This document shows, in pieces, positions 19,437 to 33,114 of a stretch of 64,000 bases of DNA. The position numbers and the translations under genes were made by a program. Positions within the stretch are counted from its first letter, which is position 1. Each line of letters starts with the position of its first letter. The notes under the pieces were generated by a model that had not been told where the DNA came from, ran no database searches, and was given only the letters and a program-made list of their open reading frames with translations. Origin of the DNA: Flavobacteriales bacterium (GTDB lineage: Bacteria; Bacteroidota; Bacteroidia; Flavobacteriales_G; Salibacteraceae); contig JAGQYO010000011.1 in the NCBI GenBank assembly GCA_020435995.1, forward strand, positions 1 to 64,000, given 5' to 3'.

Positions 19437-20519
19437 TTACATCCTTCTGTAAAGTCCTTCGATGTAGGCCATATCTACGGTTTTTTTCCAATCAGGCCCA
19501 AAAGCATGGTTCCACATGTGCTCCAGTCGAATAGCAATGGTTGCCATGGCAGTTATTTCTTGATCAGTCCAATCCGCTGACAAATTCTGTGGAAGCGTTA
19601 CGTTGAACCGCTTGAGCATTCCTTTAAAATCAATAACCGCGTCGCCATAAACTTCTTCGAGGTGATTGAATGCAATGCAGTTCGCATACCCGTGTCGGGT
19701 TCCGAAAACAAAGCTTAACCCGTATGACAGAGCGTGACACACACCAACTTCGGAATAGGTTAGACTCAGTCCACCAAACAAGGACGCGAGCATTAATTTT
19801 TCATCGTTTTCGGTGCTTTGACCAGCATTTTCTCCAAGAAAAACTTCCTTACAAAGCGCAATCGATTGATCGCCATAAGCTTTTGAAAAAGTGTTGTACT
19901 TGATTCCCGTTGCCGATTCAATGCAATGGATAAAAGTGTCCATTCCAGTGTAAAACCATTGATCTGTGGGAACAGTGGCGGTCAACAAGGGATCGAGCAC
20001 CACTTGGTTAAAGACCGTCCATTCGCATTTTAATCCTAATTTTTTTTCGGGCCCACTTAATACTGCCGTCATCGAACATTCTGCGCCTGTACCAGAAATG
20101 GTGGGGACACCACAGTGGTAAATTCCAGGTTTTTTAACCAAATTCAATCCCTGATACAAAGTGGAGGAACCTTCATTGGTGAGCATTAAACTCAAGGCTT
20201 TGGCAATATCCATGATACTTCCACCACCAATTCCAACTATACCTGCTGGCAACCCTTGCTTGGCCAAGATTCCATCCCTCAGTTCATCTATTTGTGAAGT
20301 TTTGGGCTCTTCATGACTTGCATCTATAAAATAAACTAGGTCTTTGCCTTCCTTTGGAATTTGATTTGCCAAGTCCTTGTCTTCAAAATAGTCATCCACC
20401 AAAAAAACCATATACCCTTGATTTTCAGACCTTCGTGGTCTTATAATTTCTCCAAGTTGATAAAAACTTCCAGGGCCGTAACAAATCTTTCCTATGTTAT
20501 TGAAATTAATGTGCTGCAT
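19437..20519 (-). CDS. kdnB: 3-deoxy-alpha-D-manno-octulosonate 8-oxidase (KdnB)
   Basis: A 360-residue iron-containing alcohol dehydrogenase-type enzyme that oxidises the C8 hydroxyl of Kdo to an aldehyde, first step of 8-amino-Kdo synthesis. It closely follows the Shewanella KdnB pattern: CYGPGSFYQLGEI, VFLVDDYF, the NAD-binding VGIGGGSIMDIAKALSLMLT, GTGAE, QWFYTGMD with HCIES, and metal-ligand histidines in HALSYGLSFVFGTRHG. It is 50 bases downstream of kdnA on the same strand. Recognition is from sequence memory of the family; the neighbouring kdnA, kdsB and kdsA strongly support it. Confidence 0.93.
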   Translation of the reverse strand: MQHINFNNIGKICYGPGSFYQLGEIIRPRRSENQGYMVFLVDDYFEDKDLANQIPKEGKDLVYFIDASHEEPKTSQIDELRDGILAKQGLPAGIVGIGGGSIMDIAKALSLMLTNEGSSTLYQGLNLVKKPGIYHCGVPTISGTGAECSMTAVLSGPEKKLGLKCEWTVFNQVVLDPLLTATVPTDQWFYTGMDTFIHCIESATGIKYNTFSKAYGDQSIALCKEVFLGENAGQSTENDEKLMLASLFGGLSLTYSEVGVCHALSYGLSFVFGTRHGYANCIAFNHLEEVYGDAVIDFKGMLKRFNVTLPQNLSADWTDQEITAMATIAIRLEHMWNHAFGPDWKKTVDMAYIEGLYRRM

Positions 20520-20569
20520 TGAATCTTGTTTTGAAATTGAATTTAGTTCGCTTTAACTTAGTCTAAATG

Positions 20570-21760
20570 TTAAACGTGCTTTTTTATAATACTTACCAAT
20601 TTGGCGCTCATCTCCTCAACTTCTTGAGCCGATTTTTTAGCGCTTACGCCCACAGAAATTAACCGCCCTACAACATCTTGAGATTTGGGCAATTCTAAGT
20701 TCGAATAATCTTGAGGAAGCGGAAGTACGTTAACAGGAATTTTCGAAATGGTGCTTAAGTTGTGTACGTGATCCCATTGGTTGATAAAGTGATACATGTT
20801 GGTATACCAATATGCCACGCCAATACCGTTAGCTCCTAAATCGGCTGCTGCTACTTGGGCCTTTTTTTGAGTGGGCATAAAAAAATTAACGAAGGTGCAA
20901 GAATCACCTTCTTCATCAATTAGATGCCTAAAAGTGAGTTCAGGAATATTTTTTAGGGCGTCTTTTATAATTTTTTTGTTGCGCTTTTGTGTTTTGAGAA
21001 TGACATCTAGCTTCCGCATTTGGGCCAGACCAACTGCAGCATTCATTTCGCCAATTCGATAGTTTAGTCCTAAATACGGATGGTTTTCCATTCCTCTATT
21101 GCTTCCAATATGATCGTGTCCGTGGTCTGAATAGGTATCCGCTTTTTTATAAGTTTCTTCGTTGTCGGTTATCATCACTCCACCTTCTCCACAAGTTGCT
21201 ATTTTGAAAAAATCAAAGGAAAAAGCGCCAGCTACTCCAAATAGCCCAACATGTTTTCCCTTATAAAATGCACCGAGTGCCTGACCTGCATCTTCAACTA
21301 AAATCAAATTATGTTTTTTACACACCGCCTGAATGGCGTCCAAATCGGCCGCGGCACCACACATGTGAACCAAACAAACTGCTTTTGTATTAGGAGTAAG
21401 CGCCTTTTCAATTCCTTCCGCACTCAAGCAAAGGGTTTCATCAATTTCTGCAAAAATGGGTATGGCGCCCAAAAACATAACAGCCTCATTGGTTGCCATA
21501 AAAGTATAAGGAGTACATATCACTTCATCGCCATATCCGATTCCAGCTGCCGCCAGTGCACAAGTAATTGCAGCGGTGCCACTCGAAACAGCATGTGCGT
21601 ATTTTGCGCCAGTAAATTTGGCTACTTCACTTTCAAAGTCTCTTGTTTTCCAGTGACCATTTCTCTGAGCATCATGGCCATATCGAAACAAAACACCTGT
21701 TTCTAATACGTCATTTACTTCTTTTCTCTCTTCTTCTCCAAACAGTTCTGTTCCTGGCAT
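20570..21760 (-). CDS. kdnA: 8-amino-3,8-dideoxy-alpha-D-manno-octulosonate transaminase (KdnA)
   Basis: A 396-residue PLP-dependent aminotransferase of the DegT/DnrJ class, which transfers an amino group to the C8 aldehyde made by KdnB to give Kdo8N. Family marks: start MPGTELFGEEERKEV, KTRDFE, SSGTAAI, ALVEDAGQALG-type Asp, and the PLP lysine in SFDFFKIATCGEGG (about residue 215), followed by SDHGHDHIG and MNAAVGLAQMRKLD as in Shewanella KdnA. The promoter-like CAAAGTTA at 21793-21800 (TAACTTTG on this strand) lies 33 bases upstream. It is transcribed away from kdsB across a very short divergent region. Confidence 0.93.
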   Translation of the reverse strand: MPGTELFGEEERKEVNDVLETGVLFRYGHDAQRNGHWKTRDFESEVAKFTGAKYAHAVSSGTAAITCALAAAGIGYGDEVICTPYTFMATNEAVMFLGAIPIFAEIDETLCLSAEGIEKALTPNTKAVCLVHMCGAAADLDAIQAVCKKHNLILVEDAGQALGAFYKGKHVGLFGVAGAFSFDFFKIATCGEGGVMITDNEETYKKADTYSDHGHDHIGSNRGMENHPYLGLNYRIGEMNAAVGLAQMRKLDVILKTQKRNKKIIKDALKNIPELTFRHLIDEEGDSCTFVNFFMPTQKKAQVAAADLGANGIGVAYWYTNMYHFINQWDHVHNLSTISKIPVNVLPLPQDYSNLELPKSQDVVGRLISVGVSAKKSAQEVEEMSAKLVSIIKKHV

Positions 21761-21842: not shown

Positions 21843-22613
21843 ATGAAGGCTTTAGCAATTATTCCCGCTCGATTTGGAAGTTCTCGCTTGGAGGGAAAAC
21901 CATTGGTTGATATTCTTGGAAAACCTATGATTCAAAGGGTTTACGAGCAGGCGGCTAAGGCTATTTCTACCGTTTTTGTGGCAACAGATGACGTTAGAAT
22001 TAAGCAAACCGTAATTGAGTTTGGGGGGAATGTGGTAATGACTTCTGCTGACCATCAAAATGGAACCACGCGTTGCTTGGAGGCGTACGAAAAAATATCT
22101 GCTGCCATGAGTGAAACCTACGATGTGGTCATCAATGTGCAGGGGGACGAACCTATGTTAGATCCTAGTCAATTAACGGATTTGCTCGTTCCTTTCAAAA
22201 ATGAAAAAACGCGAATGTCAACCTTGGTGACGCCCGTAATAAACCCAGAAGATTTGATGAATGAAAGCGAGGCATTTGTGATATTGGATAAGGATTTTAG
22301 AGCCATGTATTTTAGCCGGTCAGTTATTCCCCATGTGCGCGGCCTCAACAAGGCCCACTGGATGGAGTATCACACCTTTTATAAGCACGTTGGTTTATAT
22401 GCCTACACGTATGAAGCCTTGAAAAATTTTGCTGAGCTCCCGGTTTCTAGTCTCGAAAGAATGGAATCTTTAGAACAAAACCGATGGATTGAAAATGGAA
22501 ATGAAATCTATGTGGCTATTACGCTTTGTGATTCTATTCCAGTTGATACCCTAGAGGATTTAGAACGAGTTAGGGCCATCCTTAGAGATAAACCAGAAGA
22601 AGAAGGTGATTAG
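21843..22613 (+). CDS. kdsB: CMP-Kdo / CMP-8-amino-Kdo synthetase (KdsB)
   Basis: A 256-residue cytidylyltransferase that activates Kdo, or here probably Kdo8N, with CTP for transfer to lipid A. Motifs: IIPARFGSSRLEGKPL at the start (CTP loop), VFVATDD, QGDEPML near residue 100, and YFSRSVIPH. The open frame extends upstream to 21810, but the ATG at 21843 gives the standard N-terminus MKALAIIPAR and a promoter-like TATCTTTG lies between the two. It is divergent from kdnA-kdnB. In Shewanella the KdsB encoded next to kdnA/kdnB prefers Kdo8N; the same is likely but unproven here. Confidence 0.93.
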   Translation: MKALAIIPARFGSSRLEGKPLVDILGKPMIQRVYEQAAKAISTVFVATDDVRIKQTVIEFGGNVVMTSADHQNGTTRCLEAYEKISAAMSETYDVVINVQGDEPMLDPSQLTDLLVPFKNEKTRMSTLVTPVINPEDLMNESEAFVILDKDFRAMYFSRSVIPHVRGLNKAHWMEYHTFYKHVGLYAYTYEALKNFAELPVSSLERMESLEQNRWIENGNEIYVAITLCDSIPVDTLEDLERVRAILRDKPEEEGD

Positions 22614-22674: not shown

Positions 22675-23508
22675 ATGTCAAAAAAGATTGTAAAAGTTGG
22701 AGATATCAATTGTGGTTCGGATGAACTCTTTTTAATCTCAGGGCCTTGTGTAATTGAGGACGAATCCACAATGATGAAAACCGCGGAGAAACTCAAAGAA
22801 GTTTCGGAGCGAATGAACATCAAGATTATTTATAAATCGTCTTTTACAAAAGACAACAGATCATCCTTAAAATTTTACCGAGGGCCAGGATTACAAGAGG
22901 GTTTGAAACTGCTTCAAAAAGTAAAAGATCAATTTGGCTTTACTTTATTGAGCGACATACATAACCCTTCTCAAGCCGCACCAGCTGGAGAGGTATTGGA
23001 TGTGATTCAAATTCCGGCGTACTTGTGTATGCAGTCTGAATTGCTGGTAGAAAGTGCCAAAACGGGTAAAGTGGTGAACATCAAACACGGCCAATTTTTG
23101 GCTCCCGAAAACATGATTAAACCCGTTGAAAAATGCGTGGAATCTGGAAATGATCAGATTATTTTAACCGAAAGAGGTTACACTTTTGGATATAACGATT
23201 TGGTGGTTGACCCCAGAAGTTTTTACCATCTGCGTCAACCGGGTTATCCAGTAGTATTTGACATTACACATTCCATTAGAAAATACGGAATACCAAGTGC
23301 CGATCCCAAAGGAGGTAACAGAGAGTTTTTACCTACCATAGCAAGAGCAGGTGTTGCAGCAGGTGTTGATGGTGTTTTTATAGAAACACATCCCGATCCT
23401 AGCAAGGCATTGTGTGATGCAGCAAGTCAATTATGCGTTTATGATTTAGAAGAATTTTTAAAACCACTTATCGAAATTCATAATTTAGAGGTTCAATACC
23501 GAGATTAA
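22675..23508 (+). CDS. kdsA: 3-deoxy-8-phosphooctulonate synthase (KdsA)
   Basis: A 277-residue TIM-barrel aldolase-type enzyme condensing arabinose 5-phosphate with phosphoenolpyruvate to Kdo-8-phosphate. Motifs: LISGPCVIEDES at residues 21-32, the PEP/A5P-binding IIYKSSFTKDNRSS, LLSDIH, QIPAYLC, NIKHGQFLAPE and the FIETHPDPSKALCD segment near the end. A TATTTTTG element (22646-22653) upstream may provide a second promoter. The next gene, the transaldolase-CBS fusion, begins 33 bases later, so the two are probably co-transcribed. Confidence 0.95.
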   Translation: MSKKIVKVGDINCGSDELFLISGPCVIEDESTMMKTAEKLKEVSERMNIKIIYKSSFTKDNRSSLKFYRGPGLQEGLKLLQKVKDQFGFTLLSDIHNPSQAAPAGEVLDVIQIPAYLCMQSELLVESAKTGKVVNIKHGQFLAPENMIKPVEKCVESGNDQIILTERGYTFGYNDLVVDPRSFYHLRQPGYPVVFDITHSIRKYGIPSADPKGGNREFLPTIARAGVAAGVDGVFIETHPDPSKALCDAASQLCVYDLEEFLKPLIEIHNLEVQYRD

Positions 23509-23541: not shown

Positions 23542-24552
23542 ATGGAATTATATCTTGATTCGGCAGACATTAAAGAAATTGAAGAAGCATTTAAACTTGG
23601 GTTTCTAACGGGTCTTACAACGACCCCTACATTTATGGCCCGAGAAGGTGTTACAGATATTGATGGGTTGATTTTAAAATTAGCCGATATGGTACCTATA
23701 CTTCAAGTTGAAGCACTGGGGCAAACTGCCGACGAAATTGTGGCTGAGGCCTATCGCCAATTGGAAATGGGGCTAAAAAAAGAGCGATCTGTATTTAAAA
23801 TTCCAGTTTCATTAGAAGGAGTTAAAGCTTGTAAGCGATTGGCCGATGACAACATCATGGTGAATGTTCACTTGGTTTATACCCTGCAACAAGCCTATAT
23901 GGCTATGGAAGCTGGAGCTACTTATGTATGCCCATTAGTTGGTCGTTTACAAGATCAAGGACACGATGCGCTTGGCTTGATTGAAGAATGTGTTGATGCG
24001 GTTAATTTCTATGGCTATGATACCAAGATTATGTTTTCATCAGTGCGTTATCCTGAGCACGTGCGGAATGCAATTAATGCTGGTGTTCACGTTTGTACAG
24101 TGCCTTGGAAAGTAATGAAGAATCTTACTGAAAACAACTTCACACGGGTAGGTACAGATCAGTTTTTTGAAGATACAAGAATGATGACTAAAACGGTAAA
24201 AAGCGCCATGCGAAAGGTAAATCCTACTGTTTTGGCTAGTTTGTCAATTCCAGAAGCTATAATTAAAATGACAGATTATGGATTTGGATGTGTTACCGTT
24301 CTCAACGCTGATGGATCTCTAAAAGGGGTATTTACCGATGGAGATTTGAGAAGATTAATTGGATCTAAGGGCGATGCCATTATGAATACAAAATTGAGTG
24401 ATTTGGATTTTAGTACACCAAAGAGTATTGAAACTTCTGCCTTGCTCAACACAGCAAAAGATTTATTCAAACAAACTCATGTAGATACCCTAATGGTAAC
24501 CGAAAACGGGGTTCCAGTGGGTATGCTCGACATCCAAGATTTGGCGGGATAA
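23542..24552 (+). CDS. transaldolase/FSA-fold aldolase fused to a KdsD-like CBS pair
   Basis: A 336-residue two-part protein. Residues 1-220 align with small transaldolases and fructose-6-phosphate aldolase: D6, the Schiff-base lysine K86 in FKIPV, R135 and an SSVR segment are kept. The signature TTNPS is TTTPT here (Asn28 to Thr), and the TNCTLIFS-type strand is VNVHLVYT (Thr to His at 110). Residues about 235-336 are two CBS motifs (KMTDYGFGCVTVLNADGSLK, GVFTDGDLRRLIG, DTLMVTENGVPVGMLDIQDL) closely resembling those at the C-terminus of KdsD. It lies between kdsA and kdsC, the place where kdsD is expected, and ends 1 base before the phosphatase gene. Possible roles: making arabinose 5-phosphate by aldol chemistry, or sensing CMP-sugar levels. 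Confidence 0.88.
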   Translation: MELYLDSADIKEIEEAFKLGFLTGLTTTPTFMAREGVTDIDGLILKLADMVPILQVEALGQTADEIVAEAYRQLEMGLKKERSVFKIPVSLEGVKACKRLADDNIMVNVHLVYTLQQAYMAMEAGATYVCPLVGRLQDQGHDALGLIEECVDAVNFYGYDTKIMFSSVRYPEHVRNAINAGVHVCTVPWKVMKNLTENNFTRVGTDQFFEDTRMMTKTVKSAMRKVNPTVLASLSIPEAIIKMTDYGFGCVTVLNADGSLKGVFTDGDLRRLIGSKGDAIMNTKLSDLDFSTPKSIETSALLNTAKDLFKQTHVDTLMVTENGVPVGMLDIQDLAG

Positions 24553-24553
24553 A

Positions 24554-25273
24554 ATGACCTCCCTCGTAGATATTAGGATGTTGTTTGAAAATCAAGGTGG
24601 CGTATTTCTCTCGTCACCTTCGGTAATAGCTCAAAAAATAGCTAATATCAAGGCATTCGTTTTTGACTGGGATGGGGTTTTTAATGATGGGAGAAAAGGA
24701 GGGATAAACGCGAGTGATTTCTCAGAAATAGATTCCATGGGAGTGAATATGCTCCGATTTTCATCTTGGTTGACCCAGAACAAAACGCTGCCTATTTGTG
24801 CCATTTTAACTGGGGCCGACAACAAAATCGCGAACGAGTTTGGCGTAAGAGAAAAATTTCAAAAGGTTTACTTCAAAGTTTTGGATAAAAACAAGGCCTT
24901 AGATCATTTGTTAGCCGATCATGGGTTTAAGGCGCACGAAGTTGCTTTTTTCTTTGATGATATACTGGATATGGGTGTTGCACAAAGATGTGGACTCAAT
25001 GTATTTATATCATCTCCTGGAAAAGTAATGCTTACCGAATTTGTGAAAAACGGCAGGGCAGATTACATAACTCGCATGTCCGGAGGCGAGCATGGTGTAA
25101 GAGAGGCCTGTGAGCTACTAATCGCGTTGGGTAACAATTACGAAGAAGTAATTGAAAGGAGATTTAAATTTGACCAATCTTATCAATCCTATTTAAAAGA
25201 AAGACAAGGCGGAAGCACTGGTTTTTACACCCTGAGCAGCCAAGGCCTGATAACAGAACACCACGTAGAATAA
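24554..25273 (+). CDS. kdsC: KdsC-like HAD phosphatase (Kdo-8-phosphate phosphatase)
   Basis: A 239-residue HAD enzyme of the small KdsC/YrbI class, expected to dephosphorylate Kdo-8-P. Nucleophile motif FDWDGVFNDG with D38 and D40, motif II ILTGADNKI (Thr), motif III Lys in VLDKNKA and motif IV FFDDILDMGVAQRCG are all present and in KdsC order. It is longer than the usual 170-190 residues, with about 30 extra residues at the N-terminus and a 40-residue C-terminal tail. It starts 1 base after the fusion gene, so it is translationally linked to it. The substrate assignment rests on the locus; divergence from classical KdsC leaves some doubt. Confidence 0.82.
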   Translation: MTSLVDIRMLFENQGGVFLSSPSVIAQKIANIKAFVFDWDGVFNDGRKGGINASDFSEIDSMGVNMLRFSSWLTQNKTLPICAILTGADNKIANEFGVREKFQKVYFKVLDKNKALDHLLADHGFKAHEVAFFFDDILDMGVAQRCGLNVFISSPGKVMLTEFVKNGRADYITRMSGGEHGVREACELLIALGNNYEEVIERRFKFDQSYQSYLKERQGGSTGFYTLSSQGLITEHHVE

Positions 25274-32413: not shown

Positions 32414-32461
32414 ATTCAACATTCAACATTCAACATTCAACATTCAACATTCAACATTCAC
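32414..32461. repeat. tandem heptamer repeat ATTCAAC
   Basis: Six perfect head-to-tail copies of ATTCAAC (32414-32455) are followed by an imperfect seventh ending at 32461. The array overlaps the stop codon of the transaldolase gene (32458-32460) and fills the gap before dtd. The 7-base unit is a likely site of replication slippage, so copy number should vary between strains. Confidence 0.9.
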
Positions 32462-33114
32462 TTATTTCCCTTCGCGTAATCCGCCAAAAATTTCTCTAAA
32501 CCAAGATCTGTAAGTGGGTGATTTAAAAGTCCCGTTATGGAAGAAAGTGGACCTGTCATAACATCTGCACCAATTTCTGCACATTTGATCACATGCATGG
32601 TATGGCGAACCGATGCGGCTAAAATTTGTGTTTCAAAAAAGTAATTGTCGTAAATCAATCGGATTTGTGCAATGAGATCCAGTCCATCGGTAGAAACATC
32701 ATCCAACCGGCCAATAAATGGAGACATGTAGGTCGCACCTGCTTTGGCAGCGAGCAAGGCTTGTCCAGCCGAGAATATGAGGGTACAGTTTGTTTTGATT
32801 CCCTTATTTGAGAAATAACGCAAGGCTTTAACTCCGTCTTTGATCATCGGAATTTTAACCACGATATTCTCATGTAAATCAGCTAACGCCTCACCTTCTT
32901 TAATCATTCCGGCATAGTCAGTAGCAATTACTTCGGCACTCACATCACCATCTACTATGTTACAAATGTCAACGTAATGTTTGAGGATGTTATTGGTTCC
33001 AGTAATGCCTTCCTTGGCCATTAGAGATGGGTTGGTGGTAACACCGTCCAATACTCCTAGTTCTTGTGCTTCTTTAATTTGAGCCAAATTGGCCGTATCG
33101 ATAAAAAATTTCAT
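32458..33114 (-). CDS. transaldolase / fructose-6-phosphate aldolase-like protein
   Basis: A 218-residue small transaldolase with the standard signatures: D6, [11 protein letters not shown] (Asn28), Schiff-base Lys87 in [18 protein letters not shown], and IGRLDD. It transfers or splits dihydroxyacetone units in sugar phosphates (sedoheptulose-7-P and glyceraldehyde-3-P or fructose-6-P). It is an intact canonical copy and a useful comparison for the changed active site of the CBS fusion at 23542. Its stop codon lies in the ATTCAAC repeat. A promoter-like pair (minus strand TTTTG/TACCTTTG) precedes it. Confidence 0.93.

Follow-up and report, generated by a model that had tools for sequence, protein, structure and literature searches.

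How does a cell make Kdo when the enzyme that should supply arabinose 5-phosphate (A5P) is missing from its Kdo locus? The standard view places KdsD, as the supplier of A5P, at the first step of Kdo synthesis, and this A5P supply is also regarded as an antibacterial target. In the window analysed here, a stretch of 64 000 nucleotides from a Flavobacteriales bacterium, the place where kdsD would be expected is taken by a gene for a transaldolase-like barrel joined to a pair of CBS domains. The original prediction, made from the sequence alone, held that this fusion protein either makes A5P by an aldol route or controls the Kdo pathway through its CBS domains. The relevant features, in coordinates of the window, are the following.

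19437–20519, reverse strand: kdnB, Kdo 8-oxidase, an iron alcohol dehydrogenase (best PDB match 5k8c, Shewanella KdnB, 1e-113)
20570–21760, reverse strand: kdnA, Kdo8N transaminase, a DegT-type aminotransferase (best PDB match 5k8b, Shewanella KdnA, 1.1e-138)
21843–22613, forward strand: kdsB, CMP-Kdo synthetase or CMP-Kdo8N synthetase (TIGR00466, 6.3e-63, over the cut-off)
22675–23508, forward strand: kdsA, Kdo-8-phosphate synthase of a divergent KDNRSS type (TIGR01362, 1.2e-100, over the cut-off; a tree clade of its own, 100/100)
23542–24552, forward strand: transaldolase/FSA–CBS fusion of 336 amino acids, the proposed A5P-forming enzyme replacing KdsD
23542–24195, forward strand: transaldolase-fold barrel of the fusion, residues 1–218, with D6, T28, E57, K86, N108, H110, C130, L132, R135, S167 and R169
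24196–24549, forward strand: KdsD-type CBS pair of the fusion, residues 219–336, with the motif GVFTDGDLRR
24554–25273, forward strand: divergent KdsC-like HAD phosphatase with extra N- and C-terminal parts (NF007019 KdsC, 4.6e-18, below the cut-off; PDB matches to YrbI/KdsC)
32458–33114, reverse strand: single-domain transaldolase of the ordinary kind from this genome, outside the locus and used for comparison only (TIGR00875, 281 bits, over the cut-off)

The fusion gene lies between kdsA and the KdsC-like gene with gaps of 33 bases and one base, respectively, exactly as had been predicted. Since kdnA and kdnB are found beside kdsB, kdsA and the KdsC-like phosphatase gene, we identify the cluster as a Kdo8N (8-amino-Kdo) locus. 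The presence of kdnB and kdnA on the other strand (19437–21760), the divergence of KdsA and the KdsC match below its cut-off go beyond the original prediction. The order kdnA–kdnB–kdsA–fusion–HAD–kdsB recurs across 84 related loci, in which the HAD gene was found in 59, KdsA in 45, KdsB in 38, KdnB in 33 and KdnA in 32; many of these loci lie on short contigs, and in others the genes are dispersed. The KdsC-like HAD protein has no Pfam match, yet it is situated beside the fusion in most loci. In some loci small genes are inserted between kdsA and the fusion (L094, 7309–7976, with similar inserts in L097, L117, L126 and L100; L053, 8058–8521; L086, 7535–7900). Judged by eye only, some of these inserts resemble toxin–antitoxin pairs (ribbon–helix–helix with PIN-like, or HicA/HicB-like) and others a four-helix rRNA-intervening-sequence protein.

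Residues 3–218 of the fusion match Pfam TAL_FSA (PF00923) with an E-value of 4.8e-33, and a CBS match (2.2e-12) starts at residue 219. The AlphaFold2 model has high confidence along its whole length (mean pLDDT of 94) and its barrel resembles the transaldolase of Thermoplasma acidophilum (PDB entry 3s0c) with a Z-score of 30.7 and an r.m.s.d. of 1.3 over 215 residues. The protein has the barrel fold and the Schiff-base lysine of the transaldolase/FSA superfamily (PF00923). Its score against TIGR00875, the FSA/TalC transaldolase profile, is 164 bits (3e-48), which is below the curated cut-off of 246. Residues 213–323 match the KpsF/KdsD profile TIGR00393 (1.5e-16, 61 bits against a cut-off of 203.7); this match is confined to the CBS part (profile positions 152–260), and a profile search of the fusion protein found no SIS domain. 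The top PDB sequence matches of the CBS pair are themselves CBS pairs of KdsD, with 4o9k (5e-12) followed by 3fna and 3k2v. As the fold list of the full model filled up with barrels, the CBS part was modelled and searched separately, and its best fold match is again 4o9k. The proposed joining of a barrel to a KdsD-like CBS pair is thus borne out by the Pfam, TIGR00393 and PDB matches.

In our genome collection 491 relatives of the fusion were found, and hundreds of environmental Bacteroidota species carry it in place of KdsD. The search for these relatives used MELYLDSA and QQAYMAM as peptide patterns, so that conservation at residues 1–8 and 116–122 is partly built in; D6 is the only highlighted active-site residue that falls within these stretches. 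Among 101 aligned full-length fusions, with pairwise identities of 61–100%, residues D6, E57, K86, N108, R135, S167 and R169 are invariant, which includes the three (D6, K86 and R135) for which retention had been predicted. Compared with ordinary Bacteroidota transaldolases, all 101 also share the donor-side changes N28 to T, T110 to H, S130 to C and F132 to L, and all 101 have TTTPT in place of the TTNPS signature. In the window, TNCTLIFS likewise reads VNVHLVYT in the fusion, while the ordinary transaldolase (32458–33114) retains both motifs, in agreement with the original prediction. Near-invariant positions amount to 111 of 215 in the barrel and 20 of 121 in the CBS part; conservation of the barrel far above that of the CBS part points to stronger constraint on catalysis.

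Two simple explanations were rejected. A chance, one-off fusion or a frameshift artefact is ruled out by the 101 intact copies, and a plain transaldolase with a stray CBS pair is ruled out by the invariance of the active-site changes and by the existence of the ordinary transaldolase as a separate gene.

The changes on the donor side suggest what has happened to the pocket. At the places of Gln59 and Tyr131 of fructose-6-phosphate aldolase (FSA), which belong to its water-holding site, all 101 fusions have E57 and L132, and the water site of FSA is not retained. In the structures of TalB and of the T. acidophilum transaldolase, S130 and F132 presumably line the hydroxymethyl group beside the imine carbon of the ketose donor. 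The replacement of S130 by Cys and of F132 by Leu would then amount to the loss of the ketose hydroxymethyl pocket, and together with the invariant H110 this would fit an aldehyde donor.

Is KdsD truly missing? The source genome is 98.9% complete and contains KdsA. A whole-genome search returned no KdsD-family protein over the cut-off, and the best match was the CBS part of the fusion itself. The SIS proteins of this genome are GlmS, GmhA, a GmhA-like protein, MurQ, a phosphoglucose/phosphomannose isomerase and a PfkB–SIS hybrid. With each of them named, a hidden KdsD is ruled out, and the absence that had been noted for the locus extends to the whole genome. Of the five fusion genomes in the first comparison, the source genome alone has this hybrid, a PfkB-type sugar kinase joined to an SIS domain (691 residues; L006, 862–2937, on G000:C172). 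That KdsD is present in fusion genomes but has been missed, either in assembly gaps or as a divergent single-domain SIS isomerase, is in our judgement extremely unlikely. Many fusion genomes are indeed fragmented MAGs, and there are single-domain SIS isomerases with lower scores (for example 2e-44 in G230), but a complete chromosome (CP075895, of the Chitinophagaceae strain LGM1; L087/G315/G506) carries the fusion and KdsA without KdsD, KdsD is also absent from a three-contig fusion genome (G292), and the other fusion genomes show a set of GlmS, MurQ and GmhA-sized SIS proteins similar to that of the source genome.

The original prediction raised the question of whether the fusion and kdsD exclude each other across Bacteroidota. 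In an even sample of 296 genomes of the phylum, with true KdsA defined by an E-value of at most 1e-90, KdsA is present in 218, KdsD in 212 and both in 210. The fusion occurs in none of these 210, and no genome of the sample holds KdsD together with the fusion. Five of the eight KdsA genomes (of 218) that are without KdsD carry it (Fisher 1.4e-8, relatedness ignored). The other three (G023, G200 and G272) may have a further source of A5P or assembly gaps; reading of their loci gave no obvious substitute A5P enzyme around kdsA. Family f3 (197 genomes) has the fusion in 18 and KdsD in 169; when restricted to good genomes (completeness of at least 90%, contamination of at most 5%), the fusion is found in 15 of 18 genomes without KdsD versus two of 151 with KdsD (Fisher 1e-16, relatedness ignored). 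Kinship enters these tests only through the count by genus, in which nine of 11 fusion genera are without KdsD against a background of 6.7% (1.3e-9). Genera g18, g151, g162 and g226 each have a fusion-only and a KdsD-only member, while g169 and g217 each have one member with both enzymes. KdsA was detected in 56 of 57 fusion genomes tested (a few handles being the same genome reached twice), and 46 of the 50 fusion genomes in the named collection are without KdsD. In KdsD-bearing relatives kdsD adjoins recQ (L171 and L198–L201), possibly the position that it held ancestrally.

The complementarity is therefore strong and not absolute: both enzymes occur together in four of the 50 named fusion genomes and in two of the 18 of family f3. 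Of these double carriers, G327 and G330 have a second, canonical KdsA and G308, G311 and G465 a single KdsA; many of the surveyed genomes are MAGs, and MAG-derived double carriers could include contamination. Overall, the replacement of KdsD by the fusion appears well supported by this comparative evidence, in which complementary distribution, gene order and natural swaps strongly favour the proposal that the fusion does the job of KdsD. As the fusion goes together with a divergent clade of KdsA, the anti-correlation may in part stem from the exchange of an entire module and not of KdsD by itself.

The same data bear on a purely regulatory role, in which the fusion would serve as a regulator or accessory of the Kdo8N operon that senses a ligand through its CBS domains and A5P would come from the ordinary transaldolase or from another enzyme. 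We consider this very unlikely. The KdsD type of the CBS pair, the presence of an ordinary transaldolase and the coexistence of KdsD and the fusion in some genomes are in line with it. Such a role leaves the loss of KdsD in 46 of the 50 fusion genomes unexplained and is at odds with a barrel that is conserved well above the CBS part and that has an invariant catalytic lysine, Asp6 and phosphate site. For A5P supply by the fusion, in turn, the single-KdsA double carriers G308, G311 and G465 and the ordinary transaldolase as a possible source of A5P are the points that count against it.

Bacteroidota have two types of KdsA: one has the substrate-loop motif KANR(T/S)S, and the other, with KDNRSS, is a divergent clade linked to kdn clusters; both are present together in a few genomes (G327, G330 and G345). 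The KdsA proteins of the fusion genomes form a single clade (100/100) with KDNRSS. Two sisters inside this clade are informative. G190 has the fusion and is without KdsD, while G249, a genome assembled in one contig, keeps KdsD and has a kdnA–kdnB–kdsA–HAD–kdsB cluster without the fusion. As the only KdsA of G249 is of the KDNRSS type and is accompanied by KdsD, this type most likely uses A5P. The swap between G249 and G190 is the strongest individual piece of evidence that the fusion, too, delivers A5P. It also weakens the idea that KDNRSS-type KdsA uses another aldose phosphate made by the fusion, with A5P and hence KdsD not being needed. This idea, which we find decidedly unlikely, agrees with the separate clade and altered loop of KdsA, with the divergence of the KdsC-like phosphatase and with the occurrence of both KdsA types, KdsD and the fusion in G327 and G330. 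It is opposed as well by G308, G311 and G465, where the single KDNRSS-type KdsA is paired with KdsD, and by KdsB, KdnA and KdnB, which match Kdo-specific families.

The stereochemistry of A5P is that made by the transaldolase family. Escherichia coli FsaA cleaves A5P into glyceraldehyde 3-phosphate and glycolaldehyde with a KM of 0.65 mM and a kcat of 3.6 per s (PMC6900487); it forms A5P in synthetic pathways, and TalB F178Y does so in vitro (PMC9947464). PDB entry 3upb is, according to its title, a Francisella transaldolase covalently bound to A5P. Because of this stereochemistry and these precedents we favour aldol addition at Lys86. Lys86 would form a Schiff base with an aldehyde and not a ketone, Asp6 and neighbouring acid/base groups would make the C2–C3 bond, and Arg135, Ser167 and Arg169 would hold the phosphate of glyceraldehyde 3-phosphate, such that a glycolaldehyde unit and glyceraldehyde 3-phosphate would yield A5P. 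The affinity of FsaA for glycolaldehyde is reported to be too low for flux in E. coli (PMC9947464), which counts against the aldol route. As two-carbon unit the enzyme may use free glycolaldehyde, or the unit may arise through retro-aldol cleavage of ribose 5-phosphate followed by re-addition in the site (a net 2-epimerization), which would avoid the need for a free two-carbon source. Among metabolites free glycolaldehyde is not abundant, and the two-carbon source is the weak point of the aldol route. The aldol proposal is thus chemically plausible in light of FsaA and 3upb, and the A5P-forming reaction itself is one that we infer.

On chemistry, the leading rival is a true isomerase or epimerase that replaces KdsD and acts on ribulose 5-phosphate or ribose 5-phosphate, with proton transfer via a Lys86 enaminol, His110 as acid/base and no C–C bond made or broken. 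It accounts equally well for the replacement, pentose phosphates are always available while glycolaldehyde is not, the change of T110 to an invariant His offers a new acid/base, and 3upb indicates that A5P can be bound as an aldimine by the lysine of a transaldolase. Asp6, however, is needed in the transaldolase family for the C–C bond steps and is kept in 101 of 101 fusions, and we know of no isomerase in this family; on balance the proton-transfer mechanism seems rather unlikely.

We therefore regard it as likely that the fusion is a non-homologous replacement of KdsD that supplies A5P to KdsA by lysine Schiff-base aldol chemistry, probably with feedback of the CMP-Kdo type. The presence of a KdsD-like CBS pair in an unrelated enzyme of the same pathway step suggests that a ligand of the same kind exerts feedback: activity is probably tuned by the CBS pair in response to the end product, CMP-Kdo or CMP-Kdo8N. 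The structure of the KdsD CBS pair in 4o9k is that of a complex, presumably with CMP-Kdo, which we use as a lead only. Control by the CBS domains, offered in the original prediction as an alternative to catalysis, is proposed here in addition to it, given the far greater conservation of the barrel. It is also reasonably probable that there is a second, non-homologous A5P route for Kdo, in which a class I aldolase (or retro-aldol epimerase) from the transaldolase family took over the feedback-sensing CBS pair of KdsD and repeatedly displaced KdsD across Bacteroidota. No earlier description of the fusion, or of the combination of A5P, transaldolase and CBS, was found in the open-licence literature.

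Compared with KdsD/KpsF/GutQ, which consist of an SIS domain and a CBS pair, the fusion has the same kind of C-terminal CBS pair, the same niche beside kdsA and kdsB and presumably the same product. It is without the SIS domain and its catalytic part is a transaldolase barrel, so that homology between the two does not extend to the enzyme part. If true, an enzyme would here have handed its regulatory domain on to an unrelated successor, a clear example of such a transfer, and a replacement this widespread would close a real gap in the pathway of hundreds of Bacteroidota genomes. The single-domain FSA/TalC transaldolases of T. acidophilum (3s0c), Bacillus subtilis (3r8r) and Thermotoga maritima (1vpx) have the same fold (Z of about 30, 34–37% identity) and share D6, E57, K86, N108, R135, S167 and R169 with the fusion, which differs from them in T28, H110, C130 and L132, in the extra CBS pair and in its TIGR00875 score below the cut-off. 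In its physiological role FSA does not take part in Kdo synthesis. E. coli FSA is a class I aldolase of the same fold that makes and cleaves A5P with glycolaldehyde and glyceraldehyde 3-phosphate (PMC6900487, PMC9947464), and the fusion, if the proposal holds, would be a natural A5P-forming aldolase, of which synthetic glycolaldehyde pathways currently have no good example (PMC9947464). E. coli FSA shares only about 25% identity with the fusion, has Q59 and Y131 in place of E57 and L132 and has no CBS pair. The Kdo8N pathway of Shewanella oneidensis likewise has KdnA and KdnB; in the window and in many related loci kdnA and kdnB are neighbours of kdsB and kdsA. Shewanella presumably uses an ordinary KdsD; the fusion is an extra element in Bacteroidota.
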